Virus record (IMG/VR): IMGVR_UViG_3300005664_000094
Location: 1 to 23,357 of that record
Origin: a virus
DNA: 23,357 nt
Strand: one strand, 5' to 3'
A model generated the notes under the pieces. It was not told the origin of the DNA. It searched no databases and was given only the letters and a program-made list of their open reading frames with translations. Below are positions 1 through 21,366 of this stretch, one piece after another. The stretch's first letter is position 1. Every line of letters starts with the position of its first letter. Position numbers and translations under genes: made by a program.

Positions 1-1555
1 TCTTTTCAAAGTCTTCTTTCATCGTCTTCTTCCTCATATCACAATATTCTGTAAGAAATCTACTTACAAATTCACCATATTCATCTCTGTAACTATTTTG
101 ACCAAAATTATTAATATAACCATTAATAATAGTAGTTAAATCATAAGTAATTTCATCAGTTAAGATTTGTTTTTGATTAACTTCAGTAAATTTCAATATA
201 GCACTACAAATAAATAACCAACTACTTAATTTTGTAAAATTAAGAGTAGGAGTATGCAATCTAAATTCAACTGTTCTTTTTCTTGTAAATACAAAAGGTA
301 CTAAATTTATCCAAAAATATCTGGAATGTATATTCCATTTTTGTGTTTGTCCTTTAGGATGCAAGAATGAATTTATATTATAAGTTTCATCTGTATGACT
401 TACTGTATTATCTGATAAAAATGAATATAATCTATCAAAATCAACTTTTACATTTTTCTTATATTGTGTTTTACTAGTATTAAGATATAATTCTCTATTA
501 CCAGTTCCTAAATCATGTAATTTAGCACAATAATTCTTTGTAAAGTTTCTCTGATAATTTTCAGGCTTGGTCTTATACATAGGAAATAATGTAAATACTT
601 CATTTTGTATATTACGTGAAAGTTTATATAAAGCTAAACAAAATTCTTCAGATATATTTTTAACACCTGATATGTGTATGTGTACAGAGCATTTTTCATT
701 AAATTCGCATCTTTTATCTACTTCAGCAGCTAGTAATCTAAGGGTTTCAAGCCCTTTTTCACCAGTTAAAGGTATAGTAGTATATTCATAAGGTTCAACA
801 CCTCTTTCATCTCTTAAACTACCATCCTTTAATGGTACTACACCTAGAGGACCTATTAAGTTCTTAGGAATAGTACCATTACATGTTTCTATCTCAAATC
901 CAAAAGTATAGTTATCTAATAACTTTGCAGCATCAGTACATCTTCCAGTAGGCTGAATCAGATTCTTATGTTTATTATACTGTTGTATAATTTCCATGTA
1001 TGTATTATTAGATTCATCAGCATTATAATTGATACTTGTTCTATCATATTTAAACACTGCTTTTTGTCCAAGTTTCATTAAATGGGATGATGGGAGAGAT
1101 TTTTTATTAATCCATACTCCATCTTTTAATGATTCTACGTAACCTAATTTCTCTGCAATTTCTGCACTAATACAAATAGTGGAAGCAGATAATCTTTCTT
1201 GTGGATTTTCAGTTAAATAAACATTGTTAAAAGGATTAAGATGAAAATACCCAAATTGTCCTTGTTCATTATATATACCTTTTACAAGATTTTCATCTTC
1301 TTCAAGAATATTAATTAATTCCCAAGTTTGTGATTCTACATTAAATCCTATTTTACCATTATTCCACCTGTGCCACTTCATACTTCCATCTGAATGTCTT
1401 ACTCTAAAACAAGTTACTCCAGGAAGATAATATTTATTATCTGCTTTTATATATCTTGTTTCTTCACGTGGATATTTTACTATACTACCATCAAGCATCT
1501 CAACATCTACTTGATCTCCTTTTGTTAATTTAATCATTTCTTTCTTTTTCGTCAT
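1..1555 (-). CDS. Amidoligase (glutamine-synthetase-like fold), C-terminus cut by window edge
   Basis: The frame is open from the ATG at 1555 to the window edge, giving 518 codons without a stop. It has the three hallmark segments of the Amidoligase_2 family: FGFEIET at residues 218-224, SVHIHIS at 290-296 and VEFRLH at 429-434. Known members are predicted ATP-dependent ligases that join a carboxylate to an amine. These acidic and histidine residues are expected to bind metal and nucleotide. About 215 residues precede the catalytic domain. They are rich in aromatics and Gly-Asn turns, look beta-rich, and match nothing I recognise. The start lies 2 bases after the stop of the class II amidotransferase gene, so the two are probably co-translated. 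An alternative ATG lies six codons downstream. The neighbouring ATP-grasp, amidotransferase and cyclotransferase-like genes support an amide-ligation pathway. Substrate unknown. Confidence 0.87.
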   Translation of the reverse strand, partial: MTKKKEMIKLTKGDQVDVEMLDGSIVKYPREETRYIKADNKYYLPGVTCFRVRHSDGSMKWHRWNNGKIGFNVESQTWELINILEEDENLVKGIYNEQGQFGYFHLNPFNNVYLTENPQERLSASTICISAEIAEKLGYVESLKDGVWINKKSLPSSHLMKLGQKAVFKYDRTSINYNADESNNTYMEIIQQYNKHKNLIQPTGRCTDAAKLLDNYTFGFEIETCNGTIPKNLIGPLGVVPLKDGSLRDERGVEPYEYTTIPLTGEKGLETLRLLAAEVDKRCEFNEKCSVHIHISGVKNISEEFCLALYKLSRNIQNEVFTLFPMYKTKPENYQRNFTKNYCAKLHDLGTGNRELYLNTSKTQYKKNVKVDFDRLYSFLSDNTVSHTDETYNINSFLHPKGQTQKWNIHSRYFWINLVPFVFTRKRTVEFRLHTPTLNFTKLSSWLFICSAILKFTEVNQKQILTDEITYDLTTIINGYINNFGQNSYRDEYGEFVSRFLTEYCDMRKKTMKEDFEK

Positions 1556-1557
1556 AT

Positions 1558-3480
1558 TTATGAAAATAAAAGTCCCCGTTTTGGAGTATTATCATTATTA
1601 GTTTCATTTTTTGAAGTTATATTAGTTAATCTCCTCTTTACGTGTCTTACAGTCTTATTAATTGCTATGATGATATTTTCTAATTCAGTATCACTCATTT
1701 TTTCAGTAAATTGTGTACCAATATTTTCACCATCTTTTACAAAATCTAAAGCTGCATCAAGAAATTCTTCTTTTTCAACTTCATTTACTTCTTTAGTTAA
1801 TTTTTCAGGTAAAATAATTGGTGTAACTGCATTGTCTGCAAATGTTGCAAATAATTGTGTATTTTTTACTTTTTCATGTTTTGTTAAAGCTGTAGTACGA
1901 CCATTATTTTTAATTGTATCTGCTGCGTTTTGAGTAATACTTGTATTATCATAATCTGAACCTAAGAAATTACCATTAGAAAATACATATCCTCTATCAT
2001 AATCAAACAATGGATAAAATACACCTGTAGCATATACAGCACAATTATTTTGATAATCCCATTCTTTAGTTGCACCCCTATCATCATTAAAGTTAGATAC
2101 AAAACCATAAGTATACTTTACTATTTCTTGTAAAAAGAAACTAGTTTTATAATTATCTTCTTTAAGTATGATTTCTTCAGGACTAGTTTTAAGTCTTTTT
2201 TGTAAAGCATCAGCACATGTTTTATCCCTCATTATGAAACCCATATAGAAATAATATGTTTCAAGAGATGATTCATCTACTTTTATTTTACCACCTTTTT
2301 CATAACCTAAATAATCTAATTGTAGAGAAACAACTTCTTTTGGTTTATTACCACCAATCATATGCCCATTTTGAAAATATCTTCCTTTATGAAAATATAC
2401 TTTACTCTTCTTTTTAGAAGGATCAAATGTAAATGGTTCGTATTCAATCATACAAAACTTCTTTTCATTCAATTGCACACCACCAAATTTCTTAGCAGCT
2501 TTTAGTATTTTTTTGTAATTAGGATAATTTCTAAAAGTCTTTTCTATCGTAGTAAGAGATAAAGACCTAATGGGAACAGAACTGTTATTCCTATTATAAG
2601 AACTAGCAGTAGTATAACGGGAAGCAGACACCCCAGATGATCTAGTATCCACACATTGCGAGTTGTTCCTCTGTCCACTCCCCTGTGAAAAATTTTGTGA
2701 TTGAACAATTTCTCTGTTTACAAGAGTAATTTTAGCTTTTTTACCAGCTATAAATTTATAAACTTTGTTAGTTTCAAGATTGAATGTATTAGTTTCATTA
2801 CCACCAATTGCATATAATGCTTCTCTTATTGAAGAAAAATATAATGATTTTAATGGTTCATCTTCCCAAACAAACATTGGACGTTCTTCTTCCACAGCTG
2901 AAGTACTATATTCTTTTGATGCACCTTTATACACATATAATACATTAGGTTCATCCAAATAAAACCATGTTAATACAGCTTTACCTTTATATTCTTCTAA
3001 TACCTTATAAGGATGCTTTTCTTTTCTATTTTTAGCTAGAATAGAGAGCATTAGTTGAGAATCTACAGGATATGTCTCTGTCATATCATAAGCCTTCTTA
3101 AGCTCCTCACAATTACTAATAGAGCCATTATGTGCACCTATAAGTACTACATTATTATCAGGATCTGTAATTTCAAAAGGATGGGCATGATCTGGATTAC
3201 TTTTTTCACTCCATGATGTAGAAGCTTTTCTATTATGTACTATAATATTATAATTCTCATCATTCTCATTTACAACTAAATTCTTCTTTTCAATAAAGTT
3301 AGAAAAATTAGCTTGTTTAATTGAAGGATTTGGTTTAAAATCATCAACACCTTTACTTACAACATTATTTATTACAATACCACAGGCATCCGAACCTCTG
3401 CTAACATTATATAATCCTAATATTTTAATTTTATCTATATTTGCTGGCTTAACGCCTATATACATGCTTATTCCACACAT
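1558..3480 (-). CDS. Class II glutamine amidotransferase with long C-terminal extension
   Basis: The protein begins MCGIS, so Met removal would expose Cys2 as the N-terminal nucleophile of an Ntn-type glutaminase. Other family landmarks follow in order: HNRKAS at 82-87 (like the HTR segment of PurF and GlmS), AHNGSISN at 116-123, and VDSQ at 139-142. The glutaminase domain fills about the first 240 of 640 residues and should release ammonia from glutamine or hydrolyse a related amide. At about 268-312 comes a Ser/Asn/Arg/Gln-rich, probably disordered linker. About 330 residues follow that I cannot assign, and I see no synthetase or isomerase motif of PurF, GlmS or AsnB. It may feed ammonia to, or trim products of, the adjacent amidoligase and ATP-grasp enzymes. 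The ATG is fixed by the need for Cys2. Confidence 0.9.
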   Translation of the reverse strand: MCGISMYIGVKPANIDKIKILGLYNVSRGSDACGIVINNVVSKGVDDFKPNPSIKQANFSNFIEKKNLVVNENDENYNIIVHNRKASTSWSEKSNPDHAHPFEITDPDNNVVLIGAHNGSISNCEELKKAYDMTETYPVDSQLMLSILAKNRKEKHPYKVLEEYKGKAVLTWFYLDEPNVLYVYKGASKEYSTSAVEEERPMFVWEDEPLKSLYFSSIREALYAIGGNETNTFNLETNKVYKFIAGKKAKITLVNREIVQSQNFSQGSGQRNNSQCVDTRSSGVSASRYTTASSYNRNNSSVPIRSLSLTTIEKTFRNYPNYKKILKAAKKFGGVQLNEKKFCMIEYEPFTFDPSKKKSKVYFHKGRYFQNGHMIGGNKPKEVVSLQLDYLGYEKGGKIKVDESSLETYYFYMGFIMRDKTCADALQKRLKTSPEEIILKEDNYKTSFFLQEIVKYTYGFVSNFNDDRGATKEWDYQNNCAVYATGVFYPLFDYDRGYVFSNGNFLGSDYDNTSITQNAADTIKNNGRTTALTKHEKVKNTQLFATFADNAVTPIILPEKLTKEVNEVEKEEFLDAALDFVKDGENIGTQFTEKMSDTELENIIIAINKTVRHVKRRLTNITSKNETNNDNTPKRGLLFS

Positions 3481-3482
3481 TA

Positions 3483-4337
3483 TTACTTGCTTATTTGTTT
3501 ATTAATTAATCTTTTAATTTCTTCAAAATACTTTTGACTACCTACTTCTCCTAATGCAGGAGCACTATTTGTTTCTAAAACTATGAATTCACATGTTTTT
3601 CTCTTATTACCACTTGAATCTAAAGAACTTGCTACTCTTACATCTATAGCACCAATACTTAATCCAACTGCTTTTAGAGCTTTTACACTATGATCTATAA
3701 TTTCATTCCAATTTGTAGGTTTATCAAAAGAACTATTATCTTCTCCTACCCAAACACAGTTTGTACTATTAAAGAACCATCTATCTTTAGCATCTTCTTT
3801 ACGAAGTTTTCTCCATGCTAAGAAACATCCATCTTCTGTAACATGAAGTCTATATTCTCTAGCTCCATTAAAATACTCTTCAAAATAATATCCACTTGTT
3901 GATTTAGACAAGAAAGATTTCAAATCTTCTACTTTATCCAACTTCTTCATTCCTTCACCACCTTGTCCTACAATTTTCTTTGCTAAAATTGGAAATTTAA
4001 GTGATTTAAAATCAGGAAGTTCTTTTACTTCATAATATTTAGCATGTTTTAATCCATCTTTTACACTATCAAATGCTTCATGCATTAATAGTTTATTACG
4101 ACTAATTTCAACTGATTCAACTGTATTTAATTCAATTACTTTTGCACCAGGTCTAACTATTTCACTAGTATCTGTAAGTGAACCCATACGTATTATACTT
4201 CTTACAGGAAACATTAATTCTCTCAATCTTTCTTTAAGACCATCTGTAGAATAATTCTTAGTTCTTAATCTAGGTCTAAATTTAATTGGAACTCCTGATG
4301 AAACAATCTTCTTCTTTATTAATTTCTTTGTTAACAT
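3483..4337 (-). CDS. ATP-grasp ligase
   Basis: This 284-aa protein has ATP-grasp features. A lysine and glycine-rich loop, AKKIVGQGGEGM, lies at 119-130. A strand and turn, YFEEYFNGAREYRLHV, lies at 151-166. The metal-binding end is IGAIDVRV at 228-235 and VLETNSAP at 253-260, where D232, E255 and N257 are the likely Mg-ATP ligands. ATP-grasp enzymes activate a carboxylate as an acyl phosphate and couple it to an amine or thiol. The N-terminal part contains RSIIRMGSLTD, similar to the N-terminal region of phage ATP-grasp proteins. It lies two bases before the class II amidotransferase, and its start overlaps the upstream cyclotransferase-like gene by 56 bases in another frame. The overlap is long for this genome, so a later start is possible. 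Substrate unknown. Confidence 0.85.
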   Translation of the reverse strand: MLTKKLIKKKIVSSGVPIKFRPRLRTKNYSTDGLKERLRELMFPVRSIIRMGSLTDTSEIVRPGAKVIELNTVESVEISRNKLLMHEAFDSVKDGLKHAKYYEVKELPDFKSLKFPILAKKIVGQGGEGMKKLDKVEDLKSFLSKSTSGYYFEEYFNGAREYRLHVTEDGCFLAWRKLRKEDAKDRWFFNSTNCVWVGEDNSSFDKPTNWNEIIDHSVKALKAVGLSIGAIDVRVASSLDSSGNKRKTCEFIVLETNSAPALGEVGSQKYFEEIKRLINKQISK

Positions 4338-4755
4338 TATTTATTGGTTTTCTATTTAAAATATATCTAATCCAGTCTCCTCCTTTTACTTTCAAACTAT
4401 CAGCTACTCCATTCTTATATACAAATAAGAATGCTGGTACAGTTTTTTGTAACCAATTTGATTTTTGAAGTAATCTTACCATCATACAATCATTTCTTAA
4501 TGCTTCTGTATATATATCTGCCCATGTTTCATCATCACATTCCATTAAGTCACAAGTTACACCATTATCTTCTTCAAAGTTAATAGTAGGTCTTATTACA
4601 GGTATCTTATTATTTATACAATATAAGCTATAGTCTTCTATTCTAACTTTTTCTATAAAGTTAAAATAACCTACATCCTTATAAAATTCAGCAGCACCTA
4701 AACCATCTCTTAGACCACCATATGCTAAAATATATTTTTTTTCAGATTTAATCAT
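4282..4755 (-). CDS. Gamma-glutamylcyclotransferase-like (GGCT/AIG2 fold) protein
   Basis: The 157-aa product starts with a strand leading into AYGGLRDG at residues 11-18, which matches the YGSLR-G nucleotide-independent substrate loop of the gamma-glutamylcyclotransferase/AIG2 superfamily. Later segments, VRIEDYSLYCI and a hydrophobic AFLFVYK, also fit the fold. Known members release 5-oxoproline from gamma-glutamyl amines or peptides. A catalytic glutamate is expected in the middle; E84 is a candidate but my alignment there is uncertain. It precedes the ATP-grasp gene with a 56-base overlap and follows the 264-aa unknown by one base (TAAAATG). In this setting it could remove or edit gamma-glutamyl groups made by the ligases; that is inference. 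The C-terminal tail, about 20 residues, is polar and may be dispensable. Confidence 0.72.
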   Translation of the reverse strand: MIKSEKKYILAYGGLRDGLGAAEFYKDVGYFNFIEKVRIEDYSLYCINNKIPVIRPTINFEEDNGVTCDLMECDDETWADIYTEALRNDCMMVRLLQKSNWLQKTVPAFLFVYKNGVADSLKVKGGDWIRYILNRKPINNVNKEINKEEDCFIRSSN

Positions 4756-4756
4756 T

Positions 4757-5551
4757 TTATAAATTTTTCCAAGCTTCTACTTTCATACCAAATTCATCAT
4801 TTTCATCACCATTTAAGATGCCATTTTTTGCATCTGAACTGTAATAAAACATTCTTTTCTTAGTAGAATGACAATATGAACTTCTAAAACCTTTTAATTT
4901 ACTTTCATTTTCAGCAAATGTATATAATATATCTTTTACTTCTTTTAATGTACATTTAGGATAGTAATATTTAGCAATTTTATATACATCACCTAAACTT
5001 CTTCTACATCCTGCTTCTGTATCAACATCTTTATTATCAACAAGAATTGTATCTCTTTCTTCATTCCATTTTGTAAAGAAATTCTTAAGAAAATCTTCAA
5101 GACTCTCTTTTCTTTTCTTCAATAATCCTTGTACTCTAATTGCTTTTATTTCTTTATTAATTTTTTCTTCTAATTGTGTTAGTTTGCTTACTTGTGCTTT
5201 TGTTGCTGCTACTCTTGGCATAATACCTGTTTTCTTTGTTAAAAATCTTCTTACTTGCTTTTCTACGTCAATATTATCATTCGGATTAACCTTCATTACA
5301 ACTTCATCTTCACCAATTGTATGTATAATCTCATTACTTCTAAATAATACAAAATTTTCTGTGATAACTTTTCCTCTAAATATAACTTCATAACCATCAC
5401 TTTCTATTTCTAATAATTCATACGAATGTTTATTTTGTGCTAAAAATTTATCACCTTTCTTATAACTAGTATTTCTTATTTTATAAGATTTATTATGTTC
5501 ATCATATCTTGCTTTTGTAGGAAAATTTCCATTTCTAAAATATCTACTCAT
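4757..5551 (-). CDS. Unknown phage protein, paralogue of the split pair at 14341-15091
   Basis: I do not recognise a named family for this 264-aa protein. Residues 28-80 look like a small beta domain (YKKGDKF to EIIHTIG). Residues 118-165 are charged and helical, probably coiled. The C-terminal third carries DVYKIAKYYYPKCTLKEV (188-205) and SSYCHSTKKRMFYYSS (224-239). Two consecutive small genes just upstream of the DNA polymerase carry the same elements: IHTIG in the 111-aa protein, and DLYRLTTYYFPKTKLEDI plus a similar S-x-C-x2-T-x4-F segment in the next. The single gene here therefore looks like the fused form of that pair. It sits three bases after the uracil-DNA glycosylase gene. A role in DNA metabolism is guessed from location only. 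Confidence 0.78.
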   Translation of the reverse strand: MSRYFRNGNFPTKARYDEHNKSYKIRNTSYKKGDKFLAQNKHSYELLEIESDGYEVIFRGKVITENFVLFRSNEIIHTIGEDEVVMKVNPNDNIDVEKQVRRFLTKKTGIMPRVAATKAQVSKLTQLEEKINKEIKAIRVQGLLKKRKESLEDFLKNFFTKWNEERDTILVDNKDVDTEAGCRRSLGDVYKIAKYYYPKCTLKEVKDILYTFAENESKLKGFRSSYCHSTKKRMFYYSSDAKNGILNGDENDEFGMKVEAWKNL

Positions 5552-6284: not shown

Positions 6285-6860
6285 TTATAAATTTATTACT
6301 GATAAGTAAACTCTATTATTAGTTCTTCTATTTATTACTTCATATAAATCTTTCCAACCATTAGTTTTTAATAATTTTCTCTGATTTATATTAGTTTCAA
6401 TATCTGTACAAAACATAAGACTATATCCTAATAATCTACCAATATCTTGTCTAAGATTATTCATAGTAGTTCCTACTCGTTTACCTCTATATTTTTCTGA
6501 AACAAAAGCTTTACAAGATACAATTATAGCACAACAATGAGGCATTTTATATAACTCAAAAGTAGCTAAAATATCATTTCCTATTGTAATACAGTATCCT
6601 CCTTCACTCCAATTATTCCATCGAAATAATTCTATTTGCTTTCCTGTTTCAATTCCTTCTTTATCTTTTTCAGGTTCAAAATATTTTATTTCTTTTATTT
6701 CTTGAACTGTTTTATCTTTTAAAATATTTTCTAAATTATTTCCCCAAAAACATCCATATCCTGATGAACTTTTTTTAAAGAATCTTAATTTCTCTTCTTT
6801 ACATTTTAATAATCCAGATAAAAGTTTTTTATATTTATCTAATACCTCTTCTGTTTTCAT
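6285..6860 (-). CDS. GNAT-family acetyltransferase
   Basis: The C-terminal half of this 191-aa protein has the GNAT fold signature. A strand, IIVSCKAFV (112-120), leads into YRGKRVGT (124-131), the R-G-x-x-x-G/A pyrophosphate-binding loop for acetyl-CoA, followed by a helix. After it come a strand (SLMFCTDIE) and N159-QRKLLKTNGW, the typical motif B. The N-terminal 80 residues are unassigned. The substrate cannot be told. The stop of the primase overlaps its ATG in an ATGA junction, and it is followed by the glycosylase gene after one base, so it is part of the replication transcript. GNAT-fold enzymes include aminoacyl and peptidyl ligases that accompany amidoligases, so a link to the nearby amide-ligation genes is possible but unproved. 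Confidence 0.8.
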   Translation of the reverse strand: MKTEEVLDKYKKLLSGLLKCKEEKLRFFKKSSSGYGCFWGNNLENILKDKTVQEIKEIKYFEPEKDKEGIETGKQIELFRWNNWSEGGYCITIGNDILATFELYKMPHCCAIIVSCKAFVSEKYRGKRVGTTMNNLRQDIGRLLGYSLMFCTDIETNINQRKLLKTNGWKDLYEVINRRTNNRVYLSVINL

Positions 6861-12075: not shown

Positions 12076-12444
12076 TTAAAAACCAGACCATCTAATATGA
12101 TCTGCTCTAGTTATATTATTAACAATTTCATAGTTTCTAATAGATTTACGTAGATTATTTATCTCTGTTTCTTTAGCTATATTTAATCCAGAACTACGTC
12201 CTGCTACTTCTACTAAGTTATTTAAATCACCATACATACCAGCTAACTTTGGATGTTCATCTTTCAATTTATTCCAATGATGTGATGTTTTAGGTAATAT
12301 GTCTTTAGGTGAAACAGGATTATTCTCTATTTCATCTATCACTTCATTAATTGTCATAGCAGACAATTCTTCTTTTATTGGTGGTGGCTTAGTTACTTCT
12401 ACTTTCTTTTGTAAAGTAGGTTTATCTGTTATATTATTTTTCAT
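12076..12444 (-). CDS. Small unknown protein (122 aa) between polymerase and loader genes
   Basis: No family recognised. The first 30 residues are polar and proline-containing (VEVTKPPPIKEE) and likely flexible. The rest is helical and charged, with TINEVIDEIENNP, HHWNKLKDEHPKLAGMYGDL and a C-terminal helix ending in a basic ADHIRWSGF. Its ATG overlaps the stop of the DNA polymerase as TAATG, and its stop is one base from the next ATG, so it is embedded in the replication operon. A bridging or accessory role at the replisome is a guess from position. Confidence 0.75.
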   Translation of the reverse strand: MKNNITDKPTLQKKVEVTKPPPIKEELSAMTINEVIDEIENNPVSPKDILPKTSHHWNKLKDEHPKLAGMYGDLNNLVEVAGRSSGLNIAKETEINNLRKSIRNYEIVNNITRADHIRWSGF

Positions 12445-14348
12445 TAAAATAAACTCATTTGTTTTGTTTCTATTACTTCTAGTATTTTCTTACATTCCAT
12501 AATATAAAAATTGTAATTTATATTATAATCACTCCATTCTTTCTCAATAAAATCATTGAATACTGTCACTTCAAATCCTTTATTGATAATTTCACTAGTT
12601 CCCTTCTTATATTGTTTTATAAATGTATGACCTGGAGTTGATATATAATATCTTACATTCTTTTGTTGTTTCTCAACAACTTCTTTATCTACATCTAAAT
12701 GATGTGTTTCTCCATAACTATCTTTACTAAACTTTTGTCTTCCACAAAAATCATAAATATTCCTATGATTCTTGACTGTTTCCTCAACAGGTATTCCATT
12801 GACAAAGTAGTTTGATATAGCTAAAGGTACTATTTTAAAGGAATTATCCTTATGAACCTCTTTGTCAATTTCAAAAGCACCTTTATATTTGACTTTACCT
12901 TTTGTAGATATAGCCATATAGTTATTAACGTCTCTAATTATCATTTTAGAATACTCTACATATTCTAAATTAAGATTAGTATTTTCTTCCCATCCTTTAC
13001 AAATATCATAATACATTGGAAGTAAATCTTTTCTAATTTTAACTGTTATACCATCAGTATTGATTTGTAATACTTTAAGTCCAATTATTTCATCAACAAG
13101 AGCTTCAGCTAACATAGCTAACATTAATTGACCATTAATTGTAGTTTTTAATGTATATAATGGATCATATAAGAAACTATGTATATCATTAGATTTACCA
13201 TATACACTATTTAAGCTTAATTTAAATCCATCAGAAAGAGTCATATTTCCTGCCTTTTTAGCTACTATTCTCTGATTTAGTATATCTTCATACACTTCAC
13301 AGAATTTAGGTCCTAAATGGGCTGGAAATAGCTTATTTTGCACTGCTATATTCGGATATAAAGAATTTACATCTAGGTCGAGTATAATATAATCATCATC
13401 TGACTCATATACTCCTGGTTTTATACAACCATGTATTCCCCCTGTTCCAAAATCATATTTAAAACCCTTATAAATAACACTATTAGCTATTGCACCTTTA
13501 GTATTAGTTACTTCTTTACTTTTAAGATTATCTAATAGACTATTAAATTCTTTTGATTGAAATTTAATATAATCAAAGATACAATCTTTAATTTTAATAT
13601 TAGGTCTGTAGGTTCTTTGTTCCTTAATTTCCCAAGGATCTTGTCCTGTAGCTTCAGAAAACAGTTTTAATACTAATTCTTCACCTATCTTACTATCTGG
13701 ATAATTTATGCAAGGGAGATTATATTTATTAATCAAATCCTTACGTAAATTAATTTTAGCTTCACTTAACTTATAGAACTTAAATGTAGCAAGAACATCA
13801 TTTAAGTTATATTTTAATATATCCTCAATTTCATCTTCTGTAATATCATTTCTTGTATGTTCTATAGGCATTTCCATTACATTTGGAAAACACATAGATA
13901 TTTCAAGTGATTTTAATGAAGTAGCTCTAGCTTTATTATTAAAATGCCATAATTTAAATAAATCTAATTGTTGTATTAAAACATCTTTTCTTTTGATTGC
14001 TACAATTTTAACAAAATTCTCTTGATTTTGAGAATCAATAATTTCTTGTGCTTTCTCATATATATCATCAATTATATCTTGTATAGATATAACTCCATAA
14101 TAATTTAATTGAGATTGCCAAAATGTAGCTTTTTGTAGTATTAAATGTATAATAGGATAATCAAAGTTAACATTGTTAAATCCAATTCCTCCTTTACATT
14201 GTTTTAAATGTGTTATTAATTCTTCTAGTTCAAATTTATCATTATGAATAACAAATTGAACTATTTCTTCAGTATCTACATTTATTGCGCTATAAGTAAA
14301 TGCTGAAGCAAGGGTTTCTATATCGTATACATATAAATTTCTATTCAG
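12444..14348 (-). CDS. Family B DNA polymerase with 3'-5' exonuclease, probable CTG start
   Basis: From CTG at 14348 the protein is 634 aa. Exonuclease motif I is VYDIET (7-12, D9 and E11), ExoII is GFNNVNFDYP (D63), and ExoIII is YNLND (Y180 to D184). The polymerase part has TGGIHG, motif A DLDVNSLYP (from D324), motif B KLSLNSVYGK and motif C INTDG (N430-T-D432-G). So it is a proofreading DNA polymerase. The spacing between motifs A and B is short, so there is no TPR2-type insertion of protein-primed enzymes. The first ATG of this frame is at residue 152, inside the exonuclease domain, and would destroy ExoI and ExoII. Between the preceding in-frame stop and ExoI the only plausible start is CTG, eight codons before D9. 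It overlaps the upstream gene by 8 bases. Confidence 0.9.
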   Translation of the reverse strand: MNRNLYVYDIETLASAFTYSAINVDTEEIVQFVIHNDKFELEELITHLKQCKGGIGFNNVNFDYPIIHLILQKATFWQSQLNYYGVISIQDIIDDIYEKAQEIIDSQNQENFVKIVAIKRKDVLIQQLDLFKLWHFNNKARATSLKSLEISMCFPNVMEMPIEHTRNDITEDEIEDILKYNLNDVLATFKFYKLSEAKINLRKDLINKYNLPCINYPDSKIGEELVLKLFSEATGQDPWEIKEQRTYRPNIKIKDCIFDYIKFQSKEFNSLLDNLKSKEVTNTKGAIANSVIYKGFKYDFGTGGIHGCIKPGVYESDDDYIILDLDVNSLYPNIAVQNKLFPAHLGPKFCEVYEDILNQRIVAKKAGNMTLSDGFKLSLNSVYGKSNDIHSFLYDPLYTLKTTINGQLMLAMLAEALVDEIIGLKVLQINTDGITVKIRKDLLPMYYDICKGWEENTNLNLEYVEYSKMIIRDVNNYMAISTKGKVKYKGAFEIDKEVHKDNSFKIVPLAISNYFVNGIPVEETVKNHRNIYDFCGRQKFSKDSYGETHHLDVDKEVVEKQQKNVRYYISTPGHTFIKQYKKGTSEIINKGFEVTVFNDFIEKEWSDYNINYNFYIMECKKILEVIETKQMSLF

Positions 14349-14754
14349 ATATTTTTATTTTCTTTCTATTTTTCAATCTAATAGATATATCAGATTTTCT
14401 ACCTCCATTAGATGTAGGCCAAAAAACCGTTTGATTCGTTGTAGAACATTGACTAGCTCCTATACTGTTTTTACTTCTGATATATTTAATTATATCTTCA
14501 AGTTTTGTTTTAGGAAAGTAATAAGTAGTAAGTCTATATAAATCAGCAGCTCCTCTCATTCTACCTTGTGGACATTGATACCCACCAGTTTCTCTTATAG
14601 TAGATTCTCCAGTTCTTACATAGTTTGTAACCTTACCAATTGCTCTATCTATTACTTCTTCAAAAGATTTAGGTTTGAATGTCTTCTCAAATGTTTTATT
14701 AAATCTAATTTTAGACATTTGATCTAAATCTTCTTGTATTTCTTTTAATTTCAT
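14341..14754 (-). CDS. Unknown protein, C-terminal half of the split paralogue pair
   Basis: I take the ATG at 14754 (137 aa), because it follows the upstream stop by one base as TAATATG. An ATG seven codons earlier (14775) would overlap that gene. The N-terminal 60 residues are helical and charged. Then come RGAADLYRLTTYYFPKTKL and ASQCSTTNQTVFWPTS, which align with the C-terminal third of the 264-aa protein at 4757-5551. The end is very basic (GGRKSDISIRLKNRKKIK), suggesting nucleic-acid binding. The TAG stop overlaps the probable CTG start of DNA polymerase. Function unknown; position argues for a polymerase-linked role. Confidence 0.77.
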   Translation of the reverse strand: MKLKEIQEDLDQMSKIRFNKTFEKTFKPKSFEEVIDRAIGKVTNYVRTGESTIRETGGYQCPQGRMRGAADLYRLTTYYFPKTKLEDIIKYIRSKNSIGASQCSTTNQTVFWPTSNGGRKSDISIRLKNRKKIKISE

Positions 14755-14755
14755 A

Positions 14756-15091
14756 TTAAAATATTTGTTCTCCATCTACTTCTAAGAATGAATCTGGTCT
14801 AATATCAGAAGGAAATGTATCTGTTTCCTCTTCTATATTAGATGTTAATACACCTATTGTATGGATATAGCGTTTATTAAATGTTTTTTTAAATCCTACA
14901 GGATATACATTACTTTCTAAAATCTCACAAAAGAATCTCTTTGTACCATATACAATTTGTTTCTCTTTAGGCATTTCATCAAGTATAAATGTTAATCCTT
15001 CTGCTTTTTCTTCTAATATAAGAGCTTTACCAAAAGGCTTTGTTTCCTCTTGGTAATTCTCATATATATCAATTTCTTGACCTGCTTGCAT
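14756..15091 (-). CDS. Unknown protein (111 aa), N-terminal half of the split paralogue pair
   Basis: No known family. It appears to be a small beta domain (GKALILEEKAEGLTFILDE, TKRFFCEILES, then KRYIHTIGVLT). The segment ending in IHTIG matches the same position in the 264-aa protein at 4757-5551, whose C-terminal part matches the next gene. It is the first gene after the only real intergenic gap in the window, so it probably opens the replication transcript. The last 30 residues are acidic. The ATG at 15091 is the only one available. Confidence 0.75.
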   Translation of the reverse strand: MQAGQEIDIYENYQEETKPFGKALILEEKAEGLTFILDEMPKEKQIVYGTKRFFCEILESNVYPVGFKKTFNKRYIHTIGVLTSNIEEETDTFPSDIRPDSFLEVDGEQIF

Positions 15092-16045: not shown

Positions 16046-17959
16046 TTATTTTATTGGACAACTTCCATTTTGACATTCATCTATTCCATCTATAATATCA
16101 GAATCTTTAATATTAGCTGATGTTATAGGTTCTATATCTTTAATCATCATTTCATATAATTCCTTAGAAATTGTTTCATAAGGAGCTTGTATAAATCCAT
16201 GATTATGATATAATAGAAAAGATAATGTTTTAAAGTTGTTTTTATAATTATCATTTAAATACTTCTTAATATCTTCTAAATCTTCTGCTTTGTAATATAC
16301 AGTACAACTTACAGAGTTATCACTCCATTCAGATTGTAATCTTCTTACAGTTTCTAATTGATCTTTCCAGCTAAAATCTGATGCAATAGGTGTTCCTGAT
16401 GGAACTTTACATGGAAATGATACTACCATTGTAGATGTATCATAACTTCCATCAAATTTAATTTGATATTCAATAGGATAACCATGCTTCTTACATACAT
16501 CTATAAGTGGTGAATTAGAAGCTATTCTAACTCTTCTTATATAATATGGTCCAGCAGGTGATGGGTGACCTCCAGGAGTTACACCTTTAAGTAAACTTAA
16601 TGTACCAGATGGTTTCATTGTAGTCAACTTAATGGATCTTGGATAACCATGTTCCTTTGAATAAAAATCATCAAATTCTCTTAACCATTCATAAGCATCT
16701 TTTAACCAGGATTTTTGTTCCTCACTAGCTTGAAGATAACCTGTTATACCAATACCCATTCTCATATTCTTATGAACTACTTCTTCTGTCTCTTTTAAGC
16801 TACAATGTAAATTTAAACTATGTTTATTTACAATATAAGTTAATCTAAGACATGTTAGTAATTCTTTATAAGAACTAATATTAGATAAAAATATCTCTGA
16901 AAGACAACATGTTTCATAGTTTTCAAGTGATTGTTCAGCACATGGATTAAATCCAACTATGTTAGGATCAGGATATTTAGTTTCTCCTGTTCTACCACAT
17001 TCTCGTGCTAATCTCATATTAATGAGTCCATAAGGTTCACCTTGTTTATAAGTGTCCCAAAACTCATTAAGTAATAATGAAGTATCATCACATGCTACAG
17101 AATTATTAGACATAGCTCTCCAGTTAGGAATAGTACCTAAGTCCCATCTCTTTGCTTTCAAGAATTCTACATCATCATAATCTCCAATAGCAATTTGCGC
17201 TGACCTACGAACATTACCTGACACTACGACACTACCAATAATATTCATTATATCTAAACAATGTATAGGTTTTAATTTCTTACCTGCATTTTCATTTAGA
17301 ATTCTATGAATTTCATTAATTCCCCAACATAATTCATCAGGACCTGATGCTATACCCCCAAATCCTTTAATTATAGCCCCTTTAGAGCGTATTAATTGTG
17401 TGGAATAGGTAAACCCTTCACCTGAATAAAAATGAGCTTTAAGTACCTTTCCAAGCAATTTAACCCATCCTTCTCTAGTATCAGGAACTATAAAATCAGC
17501 TGATTGATCATCAAATCTTTCAATTTTAATCTTCTTTTTATGTAGTTTAGGAAGTTGATATACATATTCTTTCTGAATATTGTATCCTACTCCACATCCT
17601 AACATAAGCATCTCAAAAGCCCATGTAAATGGTCTTATTGGATTATCTACAACAACAGTTGCACAATTCTGCAAAGAAGGTAATCCTAACTTATCAACAG
17701 TCTTTGTACCAAGTTGCCACATAAATCTACCAGCAGTAGACCATTTAAGATTCATTCTAGTGTTAAAATAATCTTCCTTATCTTTTTCACTAAAATTTAT
17801 ACCTAATTGTTTCTCACATGCTGCTAACTCTCTGTTAACTACTTGATCAAATTCTTCTGTTTTAGAATTAAGATCATCTTCTTTGCATCTTCGTGCATAG
17901 GTTCTTTTAAATGTTATATAACCTATTTCTCCCCAAGGAACTTCTATTTCTTTACTCAA
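16046..17959 (-). CDS. nrdJ: Adenosylcobalamin-dependent (class II) ribonucleoside-triphosphate reductase
   Basis: This 637-aa protein matches the monomeric class II reductase of Lactobacillus leichmannii type. NPCAEQ places the radical Cys at 340 and the catalytic Glu at 342. C99 in LQNCATVV and C351 form the active-site redox pair; the 11-residue step from C340 to C351 equals that of C408 to C419 in the Lactobacillus enzyme. The C-terminal CQNGSC (C629/C634) is the reducing shuttle. It makes deoxynucleotides without oxygen but needs adenosylcobalamin from the host. It is about 100 residues shorter than the model enzyme. There is no suitable ATG; TTG at 17959, five bases after the upstream stop, is the best start, and the first ATG would come at residue 69. 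Confidence 0.95.
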   Translation of the reverse strand: MSKEIEVPWGEIGYITFKRTYARRCKEDDLNSKTEEFDQVVNRELAACEKQLGINFSEKDKEDYFNTRMNLKWSTAGRFMWQLGTKTVDKLGLPSLQNCATVVVDNPIRPFTWAFEMLMLGCGVGYNIQKEYVYQLPKLHKKKIKIERFDDQSADFIVPDTREGWVKLLGKVLKAHFYSGEGFTYSTQLIRSKGAIIKGFGGIASGPDELCWGINEIHRILNENAGKKLKPIHCLDIMNIIGSVVVSGNVRRSAQIAIGDYDDVEFLKAKRWDLGTIPNWRAMSNNSVACDDTSLLLNEFWDTYKQGEPYGLINMRLARECGRTGETKYPDPNIVGFNPCAEQSLENYETCCLSEIFLSNISSYKELLTCLRLTYIVNKHSLNLHCSLKETEEVVHKNMRMGIGITGYLQASEEQKSWLKDAYEWLREFDDFYSKEHGYPRSIKLTTMKPSGTLSLLKGVTPGGHPSPAGPYYIRRVRIASNSPLIDVCKKHGYPIEYQIKFDGSYDTSTMVVSFPCKVPSGTPIASDFSWKDQLETVRRLQSEWSDNSVSCTVYYKAEDLEDIKKYLNDNYKNNFKTLSFLLYHNHGFIQAPYETISKELYEMMIKDIEPITSANIKDSDIIDGIDECQNGSCPIK

Positions 17960-17964
17960 TTATT

Positions 17965-18825
17965 TCATACTTTCTCTTCTTTTTCAACTTTCTTTGATGT
18001 ACTTTCTGTAACTACTTCAGGTAATTCTATACCATATTCTTTACATAAGTTACGAGCCATGTCTCTATTATTAGTATCTATTACCATAGGAAGAAGTTCA
18101 TATAAATCCTTATTTAATTCTCTTCCTTCGTTAATAAAATCCTGTATTTTAAGTACTTGGTTATAAACCCATGCAGTATAAACTTCTGAAGTAAGCCAAT
18201 AGTTAGATAAAGCTCTACATTCTACACCAAAATTCTTAAATCTGAAACTTCCTGCCTTACCATATAATTGTCTCCTTTCTGTATCAGGATCAAGCAATAT
18301 ACTTGGCATTGTAAGGAATAAATCAAATAATCTAACTATTTGTTCACTAACTTCTTCTGTTGGATTATCATAACCTATAGCTACGTGTCCTCCACATACT
18401 CTTAGATTATCTATTGCATCTGGTGGAGTGTTTTGTTCACCCTTCCATACATTATAGTCTGGATCACAACCAAAAGTGTTAGCTTGTTTTGTATTTAAGT
18501 GATTAGCATTAAATCTTGCACTTGCCTGAATAACAAGATCCAGTTCTTCTGGAAGATGTTCTCTCATGTATTTTAAAGATTGTTTATGATATGAAATCCA
18601 TTCATCTTCATTTGTTGCAGGTGGGATATTATATTCAAGTGCTACACAATCTACTTGCCACATAAAACCTTTAGGAAGATTATCCATTTGTAATGGTCTC
18701 TTCTTAGTTCCTTTTATGAATCCTACAGCAGAGTGAAATTCATTATTTACATTATTCCAGAGAAATACTTCTGGATCTGAACCTACAAGTAGGTTACTAA
18801 TTATTGGTTTATTTTGTTTTTTCAT
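17965..18825 (-). CDS. PhiEco32-type COOH-NH2 ligase (amidoligase type 2)
   Basis: The 286-aa protein shows the signature segments of the phage phiEco32-like COOH-NH2 ligase family: GSDPEVFL (15-22), VDCVALEYNIPPA (58-70), GCDPDYNVW (119-127), CGGHVAIGY (144-152), RRQLYGKAGSFR (184-195) and VECRALSNYWL (201-211). The glutamine-synthetase-like fold predicts ATP-dependent amide bond formation through an acyl phosphate. The His of the GGHxxxG segment and the acids of the DPE and LEY segments should bind metal and ATP. The last 30 residues are charged. It shares its start region with the end of the 371-aa orphan (17-base overlap) and is followed by nrdJ. Two amidotransferase-fold genes lie upstream, so it belongs to the second amide-chemistry cluster. 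Substrate unknown. Confidence 0.92.
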   Translation of the reverse strand: MKKQNKPIISNLLVGSDPEVFLWNNVNNEFHSAVGFIKGTKKRPLQMDNLPKGFMWQVDCVALEYNIPPATNEDEWISYHKQSLKYMREHLPEELDLVIQASARFNANHLNTKQANTFGCDPDYNVWKGEQNTPPDAIDNLRVCGGHVAIGYDNPTEEVSEQIVRLFDLFLTMPSILLDPDTERRQLYGKAGSFRFKNFGVECRALSNYWLTSEVYTAWVYNQVLKIQDFINEGRELNKDLYELLPMVIDTNNRDMARNLCKEYGIELPEVVTESTSKKVEKEEKV

Positions 18826-19924
18826 TTATTTCAAATATTAAAAAATAAGCGGGATAATATCTTGTATCTTTACCATAAGTTTCATCATTTAATGATTTAC
18901 CTTTCAAATATATTCCATTACCTTCGTATTTTTCATATGAAGTTAATTTTTCTATATTAGTATAATTAGCTACACAATAAGTATTTGACTTAATTTCAGG
19001 TAATTTATTTCCAGGATTATTAGAATTAAAATATTCTAACTTAGTAATTTCTGTTTCAAATATTTCTTCTAAAAGTTTCTTTACTATTTCAAGACTTTTT
19101 GTATGGTCTTGAGTAGTAGTTTGTTTAATAGGAGTACTTGAATTAGGATCATAATGTAAACATTTTGTAGATGGATAAGTATTAAAGAAATCACTTATAA
19201 CACCTAAACAAGCATTAAAATTATTCTGACTATAATACTTTTGAACTAATTTAAAATATAAATCTTTTATGAAATATTGTGATAAATTAAATCTTGAATC
19301 ATTATTATTTACAAAAGCATAAAATCCAAAATAATAATTAGCATATCTTATATTTAATTGTCCTTTTTCACATTTATCTAAATCTTTCTTTAGCTCTTCA
19401 GCTGTAGTAGGAAAAAATGGATTACCAGGATGTAATAAAGTAAATGTAGCATTATGATTTTTACTATTATAATGTGCTAATAATAAAGCTTGTAGTGGAT
19501 CTATATCTTTATCTGTTTCAAGTATTCTATATGTTTCTTCAATAATATTATGTGTTGGATACCATAAGTATCTAATTAATATCATTGTTATATACATTTT
19601 AAAACCACTTTTTACTTCAGACTTGTCTATAGTAAAGAAGTCACCATCATATTCAAACACTAAATCAAAATTAGATTTTAAAAATGTTAACCATTTTTCA
19701 ATTTCTTCTTTTGTATAATGTTTAATTCTATGATCAGCAGGTCTAAATTTTACATATTTAGCTGTATTAGCATAATAAGCATCTTTTAAAAACTGCATAC
19801 ATCCTTTAGTTTGGTCTTGTACTTCTCCACTTGTAGGATATAAAATACCTTGTGTATTTAAACACCATTGTGCATGTTCACTATTCTTGTACTTGTTAAT
19901 CGGATTTCTAAATCTTAATTCCAT
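18809..19924 (-). CDS. Unknown protein (371 aa) inside the amide-ligase cluster
   Basis: I recognise no family or motif. The N-terminal part contains LRFRNPINKYKN and HAQWCLNTQGI. The middle is helical and aromatic-rich (FKMYITMILIRYLWYP, QALLLAHYN, YYFGFYAFVNN). The C-terminal third has mixed strands (NTYCVANYTNIEKL, YYPAYFLIFEIN). No signal peptide or clear transmembrane segment is seen. It is linked on both sides: its start overlaps the end of an amidotransferase gene by 17 bases, and its end overlaps the COOH-NH2 ligase start by 17 bases. It may therefore be a substrate carrier, partner or further enzyme of that pathway. Confidence 0.78.
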   Translation of the reverse strand: MELRFRNPINKYKNSEHAQWCLNTQGILYPTSGEVQDQTKGCMQFLKDAYYANTAKYVKFRPADHRIKHYTKEEIEKWLTFLKSNFDLVFEYDGDFFTIDKSEVKSGFKMYITMILIRYLWYPTHNIIEETYRILETDKDIDPLQALLLAHYNSKNHNATFTLLHPGNPFFPTTAEELKKDLDKCEKGQLNIRYANYYFGFYAFVNNNDSRFNLSQYFIKDLYFKLVQKYYSQNNFNACLGVISDFFNTYPSTKCLHYDPNSSTPIKQTTTQDHTKSLEIVKKLLEEIFETEITKLEYFNSNNPGNKLPEIKSNTYCVANYTNIEKLTSYEKYEGNGIYLKGKSLNDETYGKDTRYYPAYFLIFEINEKTK

Positions 19925-20618
19925 TTAATAAATTAATTATTGTTTTGTTAGAGAATTTATCATTTATCTCTTCAGGATGCCATTGTACCCCTACTACATT
20001 AAGTCTTTTGTGTTTAAGAGCTTCAACATATTCTCCATCTTCATCTACATAAAGAATTTCTAAATCTGATCCTACATTATTCCATCTTACAGCTTGATGA
20101 TGTAAAGAATTAACTTTTACTTCTCTATTTTTTGCTACTTCTTTTAATTTCAAAGTATCAATTTCAGGATAATATAATAAATTTCCTGCCTCATCACGTA
20201 CAGGTTGAGATATTTTATGTGTTAATTCCCATCTAGGTGAAGAAGAAGGATGATACATATGCTGTGTAATTACACTACCATACTTTACAGCTATTTGTTG
20301 CATACCTAAGCATATACCAAATATTGGAACTTGAGCATCAATATATTGTTGTAAATTCACTTCAAAGAAATATTCCTTATATGCATCAGATTCACTATTC
20401 ATAAAACTTGGAGCTGATCCATATCTATATGATGGTGTATCTTTACCTCCAGGTAACACTACTAAATCTAATCCTTGTCTTATACCTTCTTGTGGTGTTA
20501 ATATTTCTACTACACCAAATTTAGAAAAGTATTCAAGATATGATTTAGTTACTCCAAATGAACTTTCACCTATACTCCAACCTACAATTCCTATGTGTTT
20601 TGTTTTATCTTGCGACAT
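19908..20618 (-). CDS. Class I glutamine amidotransferase-like protein B
   Basis: The protein has the class I amidotransferase/peptidase C26 fold. An oxyanion-region LPGGKDTPSY (55-64) precedes the nucleophile elbow FGICLGMQQI with Cys103. VNSLHHQAV (169-177) is typical of gamma-glutamyl-GABA hydrolase-like members. VQWHPEE (211-217) supplies His214 and Glu216. The fold cleaves gamma-glutamyl amides or glutamine. No synthetase domain is attached, so it acts alone or with a partner. I choose the ATG at 20618 (236 aa); a TTG at 20633 would add five residues and overlap the preceding gene. It is a distant paralogue of the next upstream gene and overlaps the 371-aa orphan by 17 bases. Confidence 0.88.
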   Translation of the reverse strand: MSQDKTKHIGIVGWSIGESSFGVTKSYLEYFSKFGVVEILTPQEGIRQGLDLVVLPGGKDTPSYRYGSAPSFMNSESDAYKEYFFEVNLQQYIDAQVPIFGICLGMQQIAVKYGSVITQHMYHPSSSPRWELTHKISQPVRDEAGNLLYYPEIDTLKLKEVAKNREVKVNSLHHQAVRWNNVGSDLEILYVDEDGEYVEALKHKRLNVVGVQWHPEEINDKFSNKTIINLLNGIKI

Positions 20619-20622
20619 TTTA

Positions 20623-21366
20623 TTAATTTTCAATGTTATTAAATACTTGTATCTCTTCTTGCTCTTTTTTTAATTTAAAATAATCATTATTTTCAAATGT
20701 ATTATTTATCACTTCATTTAGATAGTTTAATGTTTTTTCATAACTATATTTATTATAACCCATCATTTCTGGGTGAAATTGTATAGCTAAACCTCTAATT
20801 CCTGGAAACCAAACAATTTCTGGTTCAATTACATTATCATTAATTTTTGCAAAATCAGGAAAAACATTCTGTTTATCATTTCCATCTAAATAACTCTTAC
20901 TTAATCCTTCTGTCCATCCTAATACTTTATACTTGTCTTTTGGCATATTCCAAGGATATAGCATTTGGTGATGTATAGAATTAGTAACAAGTGTTAAACC
21001 ATCGTGTGTAGTAATATCATGATTACCATGATGATTTCTTACATCTTGTATAAGTTTACCACCTATTTCATTTTGCATAGCACACATCAATTGAGCACCA
21101 CGACAAATTCCAATGATATATTTACCATCTTTTACAGCTCTTTTATAATAAGCCATATGACGCTCATCAGTATCTTCCCAAAAACTAGTTCTATGACCAG
21201 CTTTTTCATTATAAATAGCAGGATTTATATCTGCACCACCAGGAAATATTACTATATTAGCATCATCCCATTCAGTTTCTCTACTATTTTCTATCCAGTA
21301 TCCATCATCATGACCTACTGAAAATGTCTTAAATTTACTTTCTTTTACTTTGTTTTTGTATTTCAT
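20623..21366 (-). CDS. Class I glutamine amidotransferase-like protein A
   Basis: This 247-aa protein carries the complete triad of the class I amidotransferase/peptidase C26 fold: FPGGADINPAIY (41-52), the elbow IIGICRGAQL with Cys88, TNSIHHQML (128-136), and IQFHPEM with His198 and Glu200. The paired His in the SIHHQ segment is usual in gamma-glutamyl hydrolases of the PuuD type. It probably hydrolyses a gamma-glutamyl bond or supplies ammonia. The C-terminal 30 residues are charged and helical. Four bases separate its stop from the ATG of protein B, so the two are translated together. Why a phage keeps two such enzymes is not clear; different substrates or a heterodimer are possible. Confidence 0.88.
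   Translation of the reverse strand: MKYKNKVKESKFKTFSVGHDDGYWIENSRETEWDDANIVIFPGGADINPAIYNEKAGHRTSFWEDTDERHMAYYKRAVKDGKYIIGICRGAQLMCAMQNEIGGKLIQDVRNHHGNHDITTHDGLTLVTNSIHHQMLYPWNMPKDKYKVLGWTEGLSKSYLDGNDKQNVFPDFAKINDNVIEPEIVWFPGIRGLAIQFHPEMMGYNKYSYEKTLNYLNEVINNTFENNDYFKLKKEQEEIQVFNNIEN

Follow-up and report, generated by a model that had tools for sequence, protein, structure and literature searches.

A split phage amide-ligase cassette in a crAss-like phage, and a hydrophobic leader on the glutaminases of its relatives

The window, the whole 23,357-nucleotide stretch analysed (IMG/VR virus record IMGVR_UViG_3300005664_000094, positions 1 to 23,357), carries all of its recognisable genes on the minus strand. 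At positions 1-4755 lie four ORFs separated by 2-bp gaps or overlapping, just as the original prediction, made from the DNA letters alone, had placed them. Profile searches against Pfam and PHROG assigned every one of the four proteins to the family proposed for it, leaving none unplaced, and the catalytic motifs are intact in all four and invariant or nearly so among divergent homologs. The GGCT-like (GGACT/AIG2) protein (4282-4755, minus strand) matched PF06094 (GGACT) at 21.7 bits, slightly below the cut-off of 22.8, and phrog_2520 with an E-value of 2e-6; its alignment contains the YGGLR motif, the conserved Glu84 and GDW. The RimK/Ddl-like ATP-grasp ligase (3483-4337, minus strand) matched phrog_2599 (RimK-like ATP-grasp; E 7e-24) and, weakly and well under the cut-off, Pfam. 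It has REYRLH and ETNSAP motifs, its profile matched PDB chains of RimK-type enzymes, Ddl and cyanophycin synthase, and translation may actually begin inside the ORF, past the ATG at 4337.

The class II (Ntn) glutaminase, which also has a C-terminal domain (1558-3480, minus strand), begins Met-Cys-Gly with no leader. It scored 26.0 bits against GATase_6, slightly below the cut-off of 27, and matched phrog_14519 (E 7e-11), and residues C2, R28, H82, R84, P101 and H117-N118-G119 are invariant among 62 homologs. Its structural model has an Ntn fold, with Foldseek matches to GFAT, GlmS, PurF and AsnB at E-values down to 2.5e-11. The adjacent Amidoligase_2 protein (GS-like COOH-NH2 ligase type 1; 2-1555, minus strand) runs past the window edge at the 3' end of its gene, leaving 518 aa visible. 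It matched PF12224 (28.9 bits, cut-off 22) and phrog_2443 (E 3e-22), and E221, E223, D244, E257, H292, H294, R412, E430 and R432 are invariant among 56 homologs; three rows from annotated phage records were left out of both homolog alignments. The AF2 model of the amidoligase (pLDDT 91) is predicted to adopt the GS/GCL fold, with the GS/GCL/YbdK/PafA-Dop architecture extending across residues 194-518. VIA-align superposed the model on glutamine synthetases, YbdK, GCL and Dop with Z of 10-11 over 220-240 residues, and Foldseek gave E-values of only about 1e-3. These fold-search matches are filled by the Ntn domain of the glutaminase and the GS-fold domain of the amidoligase, and give no evidence of a new fold in the C-terminal domain of the glutaminase or the N-terminal domain of the amidoligase.

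Layout of the cassette and comparison with known systems

The four genes are real, but they make up only half of the cassette. A second minus-strand block lies about 13 kb away, at 17965-21366. It contains a phiEco32-like COOH.NH2 ligase type 2 (17965-18825, minus strand; PF14395 at 28.2 bits, above the cut-off; phrog_3815, E 3e-66; GSDPE, GGH and ECR motifs), which is a displaced part of the first-block cassette. At the other end of the block are two copies of a Peptidase C26 (class I GATase-like) gamma-glutamyl hydrolase, both with intact Cys/His/Glu motifs. Copy a (19908-20633, minus strand; GICLG Cys, HPE) matched PF07722 at 91.5 bits; its best NCBIfam match, under that model's cut-off, was gamma-glutamyl-CDP-amidate hydrolase, and it also matched PuuD. 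Copy b (20623-21366, minus strand; GICRG Cys, HPE) matched PF07722 at 55 bits and phrog_7218 at E 2e-27. Between the ligase and copy a is a fast-evolving 371-aa protein (18809-19924, minus strand) with no family match, for which a single-sequence scan found no close relatives. In profile-profile comparison it matched a cassette-associated family described below, family X (76%, E 2e-5; 11 unrelated window proteins scored under 1%), of which it is probably a divergent member.

The best matches of the window's DnaB are crAss-like, at 31-34% identity, structural genes fall outside the window, and the gene layout resembles that of phi14:2 and cr108_1; we therefore call the source phage crAss-like from its sequence and leave its order and family unfixed. 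Amidoligase_2 and class II glutaminase genes adjacent across a 2-bp gap, a COOH.NH2 ligase type 2, ATP-grasp and GGCT-like genes and two C26 copies are all present, and we are highly confident that the window carries a phage amide-ligase ("peptidoglycan modification") cassette of a crAss-like phage, split in two blocks. The usual layout, which is not a strict requirement, is a single contiguous block, which the window lacks; published description (PMC11945000) allows variation in position, domain organisation and number, so the two-block layout does not exclude membership. In the loci we surveyed, the second-block families are usually found within the first block or next to it, so we regard the cassette of the window as split. 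In a sister contig (L194, ~78% identical at the DNA level), a COOH.NH2 ligase gene follows a homolog of the 371-aa protein about as far from DnaB as in the window, which indicates that the displacement was inherited and is no assembly accident. In a more distant relative (L087), the COOH.NH2 ligase lies at 100 kb of a 115.6-kb contig and the other cassette genes at 0.5-6.3 kb.

The combination of GGCT, ATP-grasp, glutaminase and amidoligase belongs to a published and widespread phage cassette (PMC5498523, PMC11945000, PMC3890496). PMC5498523 and PMC11945000 credit the proposal to Iyer et al. 2009 and Hardies et al. 2013, and this "peptidoglycan modification cassette" is known from phiEco32, LUZ24, PaP3, RIO-1 and Pseudoalteromonas HP1. 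The published accounts call the set a peptidoglycan modification module and put forward the hypothesis that the wall is altered and superinfection hindered. The predicted reading of a pathway that makes and edits amide or gamma-glutamyl linkages is supported; its occurrence in a phage is no surprise. The window is a new member of an already known kind of cassette, in a split layout also found in a sister phage.

We found the same gene set in phi14:2, cr108_1, Lbo-JY46, SU7 and HP1. The RIO-1-like, LUZ24-like and phiEco32-like cassettes share with the window the GGCT, ATP-grasp, class II glutaminase, Amidoligase_2, COOH.NH2 ligase type 2 and class I-type GATase families, tight packing, and a position in the early or replication region. 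They belong to podoviruses of Proteobacteria, whereas the window phage is crAss-like and has its cassette split by ~13 kb, with two C26 copies and the divergent 371-aa protein in the second block. A second comparison is Cellulophaga phage phi14:2 (Steigviridae, Crassvirales), whose g037-g041 include GGCT, ATP-grasp, glutaminase and amidoligase genes in the same order as in the window, with 30-38% protein identity where BLAST matched. Unlike the window, phi14:2 has its COOH.NH2 ligase within the block, no C26 found by profile search, and a glutaminase with a hydrophobic leader. The crAss-like phage cr108_1 (gp028-gp034) shares ATP-grasp, two copies of family X, C26, COOH.NH2 ligase, glutaminase and amidoligase at ~25-38% identity, but in one contiguous block in which no GGCT was found.

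Occurrence of the cassette among relatives

Combining IMG/VR profile scans with fetched phage records gave 166 sequences, the window included, with 82 distinct loci that were well flanked (at least 7 kb before and at least 5 kb after the glutaminase). All six core families occur together in 63 of these 82 loci, bearing out the expectation that the genes co-occur elsewhere. By family, GGCT was found in 72 of the 82 loci, ATP-grasp in 78, C26 in 73, COOH.NH2 ligase in 80 and amidoligase in 81; because loci were fetched through ATP-grasp or amidoligase and then filtered for glutaminase, the counts for those three families are conditional and those for the other three are not. Among 104 cases of a glutaminase followed by an amidoligase, 102 have the two genes no more than 100 bp apart (median gap 2 bp). 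The co-occurrence of the cassette families is far beyond chance, and the cassette is among the most conserved multi-enzyme sets of several unrelated phage groups. What emerges from the survey is a pathway of six families in which the pairing of glutaminase and amidoligase is almost fixed.

Three large phages (L150, L151 and L156) have kept C26, COOH.NH2 ligase, glutaminase and amidoligase, and no GGCT or ATP-grasp was found near their cassettes, which points to the four retained families as the core. Outside the group, none of the six families was found in the 37 kb searched of Maribacter phage Panino. Family X lies inside or beside the cassette at 29 loci, those of the three large phages included; it has no significant Pfam match and a single weak PHROG match. 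It adjoins C26, sometimes in tandem (L004:15849-17765, L150:4881-6686, L081 and L077).

We also considered where the cassette might come from and what else it might be. No relative of the crAss-type amidoligase was confirmed in the genome collection as a sign of bacterial origin. The COOH.NH2 ligase was found on eight MAG contigs, and all five of those checked carry more of the cassette, so they are apparently phage contigs in bins. PADLOC matched no cassette protein to a defence system.

A hydrophobic leader before the catalytic cysteine

In 51 of 103 distinct glutaminases, a hydrophobic leader of 22-48 aa (median 28) directly precedes the catalytic Cys; the other 52 start Met-Cys. Examples are L002:21701-21793 (phi14:2), L096:7911-7991 and L143:8088-8168, with 48 other loci. 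The lowest leader hydrophobicity (KD15) is 2.07, and 0.15% of control 27-mers reach 2.0. Net charge is +1.8 on the C-terminal side of the hydrophobic core and +0.1 on the N-terminal side. The leader has a Lys-Pro-Lys region and ends x-L-[S/N] before the Cys, with Leu at -2 in 44 of 51. Among the cassette proteins, only the glutaminases have a hydrophobic segment at the N terminus. The leader is absent from the window glutaminase, from half of its relatives, and from the non-crAss phage glutaminases with checked starts.

Between close relatives the leader is present or absent by precise in-frame differences, with third codon positions favoured among the changes inside it (131 of 289). Mapped onto an Ntn-domain tree, the trait must have switched 28 times, and well-supported branches force at least 17 of those switches. 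A missed start codon does not account for the leader: the codon before the Cys is AAT, TCT, AGT or another non-start, and in the inspected examples an in-frame stop and a spacer precede the leader. It does not fit a lipoprotein or Sec signal, with its charges after the hydrophobic core instead of before it and often Asn at -1. Nor do leaderless phages seem to encode it in a small ORF of its own: only 4 of the 52 have any candidate, none convincing. Within a limited literature coverage, we found no published description of the leader.

Because class II glutaminases require a free N-terminal Cys, removal of the leader is to be expected, probably through self-cleavage. From these features we predict that in the relatives, though not in the window, the glutaminase inserts into the membrane, processes itself and faces the cytoplasm. 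In a fuller scenario for crAss-like phages, the glutaminase would cut off its own N-out/C-in leader at the catalytic Cys and supply ammonia, at the membrane, for an amidoligase to amidate wall precursors linked to lipid, with the leader repeatedly gained and lost by precise in-frame changes; as a whole we consider this rather doubtful.

Several glutaminase annotations begin too late and so lose the catalytic Cys. In five phages the apparent glutaminase start is ATT or ATC, right before the Cys codon (L184:101-103, phiEco32; L005:7302-7304; L187:101-103, O4; and L168 and L169 near 5000). These starts follow a GGAGG- or GGTGG-like site, in several cases with a small inverted repeat just upstream.

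Candidate substrates and neighbouring genes

Judging by its motif and fold, the class II glutaminase would free ammonia from glutamine through its N-terminal Cys. The near-invariant gene pairing suggests that this ammonia is passed to the adjacent GS-fold amidoligase, which would amidate a carboxylate. By family, the COOH.NH2 ligase type 2 and the ATP-grasp enzyme may add amino-acyl or gamma-glutamyl groups, and the C26 hydrolases and GGCT protein may take gamma-glutamyl groups off. The most likely putative substrate is the stem peptide of peptidoglycan precursors at the cytoplasmic face of the membrane, and new wall made during infection might thereby be altered, for example against superinfecting phages or early lysis. 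That the cassette acts on these peptide stems by the glutaminase/amidoligase/ligase/hydrolase route is our best explanation, though we rate it a little short of an even chance. We keep it as the most likely one on account of the leader in relatives' glutaminases, a clue to a reaction at the membrane: the leader hints that the chemistry takes place in the cytoplasm and faces the membrane, which would suit lipid-linked wall precursors, and lends mild support to the cell wall, the published guess and one of the four targets originally suggested. Counting against it, the window glutaminase, half of its relatives and the checked non-crAss glutaminases are leaderless, so membrane insertion is not essential. 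Moreover, soluble gamma-glutamyl compounds are also among the substrates of the C26 and GGCT families, and no cassette gene strongly resembles a peptidoglycan-specific enzyme, the Ddl-type match of the ATP-grasp protein being weak.

Almost as likely as a wall substrate is a product that is soluble or linked to protein. The cassette could plausibly make a small amide-linked peptide or metabolite, or attach a tag to a protein of host or phage, by way of a gamma-glutamyl handle that C26 and GGCT later take off; the logic might parallel that of putrescine use (PuuA/PuuD) or butirosin synthesis. Distant matches are consistent with this: those of C26 copy a to gamma-glutamyl-CDP-amidate hydrolase (its nearest in NCBIfam) and PuuD, of the ATP-grasp profile to RimK-type and cyanophycin enzymes, and of the GS-fold to YbdK, GCL, PafA and Dop. 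Such a product would not account for the membrane leader that half of the glutaminases surveyed carry. It is improbable that the genes are independent enzymes of glutamine, glutathione and gamma-glutamyl turnover, scavenging nitrogen and amino acids for nucleotide synthesis in the replication module. They do sit among nucleotide-metabolism genes (RNR, dUTPase, UDG) in the window and its relatives, but the strict co-inheritance and order of three ligases and a glutaminase argue for one pathway. Amide-linked hypermodified bases exist in other phages, and the cassette sits in the replication region, so its enzymes might modify the bases of phage DNA with amino-acyl or amide groups. We regard this as very improbable: DNA, another of the targets first suggested, finds no support in the window, where inspection by eye of the 23 kb recognised no hydroxymethyl-pyrimidine, base-kinase or deazaguanine gene, and the dUTPase and UDG suggest ordinary thymine DNA. 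The identity of the substrate would show how these phages reshape the infected cell.

A GNAT acetyltransferase (6285-6860, minus strand; PF00583, 21.9 bits) is a doubtful accessory. In one relative a GNAT gene (L131:6074-6643) overlaps the ATP-grasp gene inside the cassette; we rejected GNAT as a cassette member, as it is missing between primase and UDG in the sister contig. The PolB frame of the window (12444-14348) extends 5' of its first ATG at 13895 and takes in the YDIET exonuclease motif, the most plausible start being a CTG at ~14348, where the sister contig has TTG. The window RNR (16046-17959) shares 61% identity with the RNR of Maribacter phage Panino but only 24% with the one in the same place in the sister contig (L194:1558-2715); judging by these identities, the gene has apparently been replaced between the two phages. 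Window ORFs 4757-5551 (264 aa) and 14341-14775 (144 aa) have near-equal numbers of homologs and equal numbers of loci, and may belong to a single family found repeatedly around the replication module. In Leptolyngbya phage Lbo-JY46 (L003:8255-12464), PncB and PrsA, genes of NAD salvage, directly precede the cassette copy.
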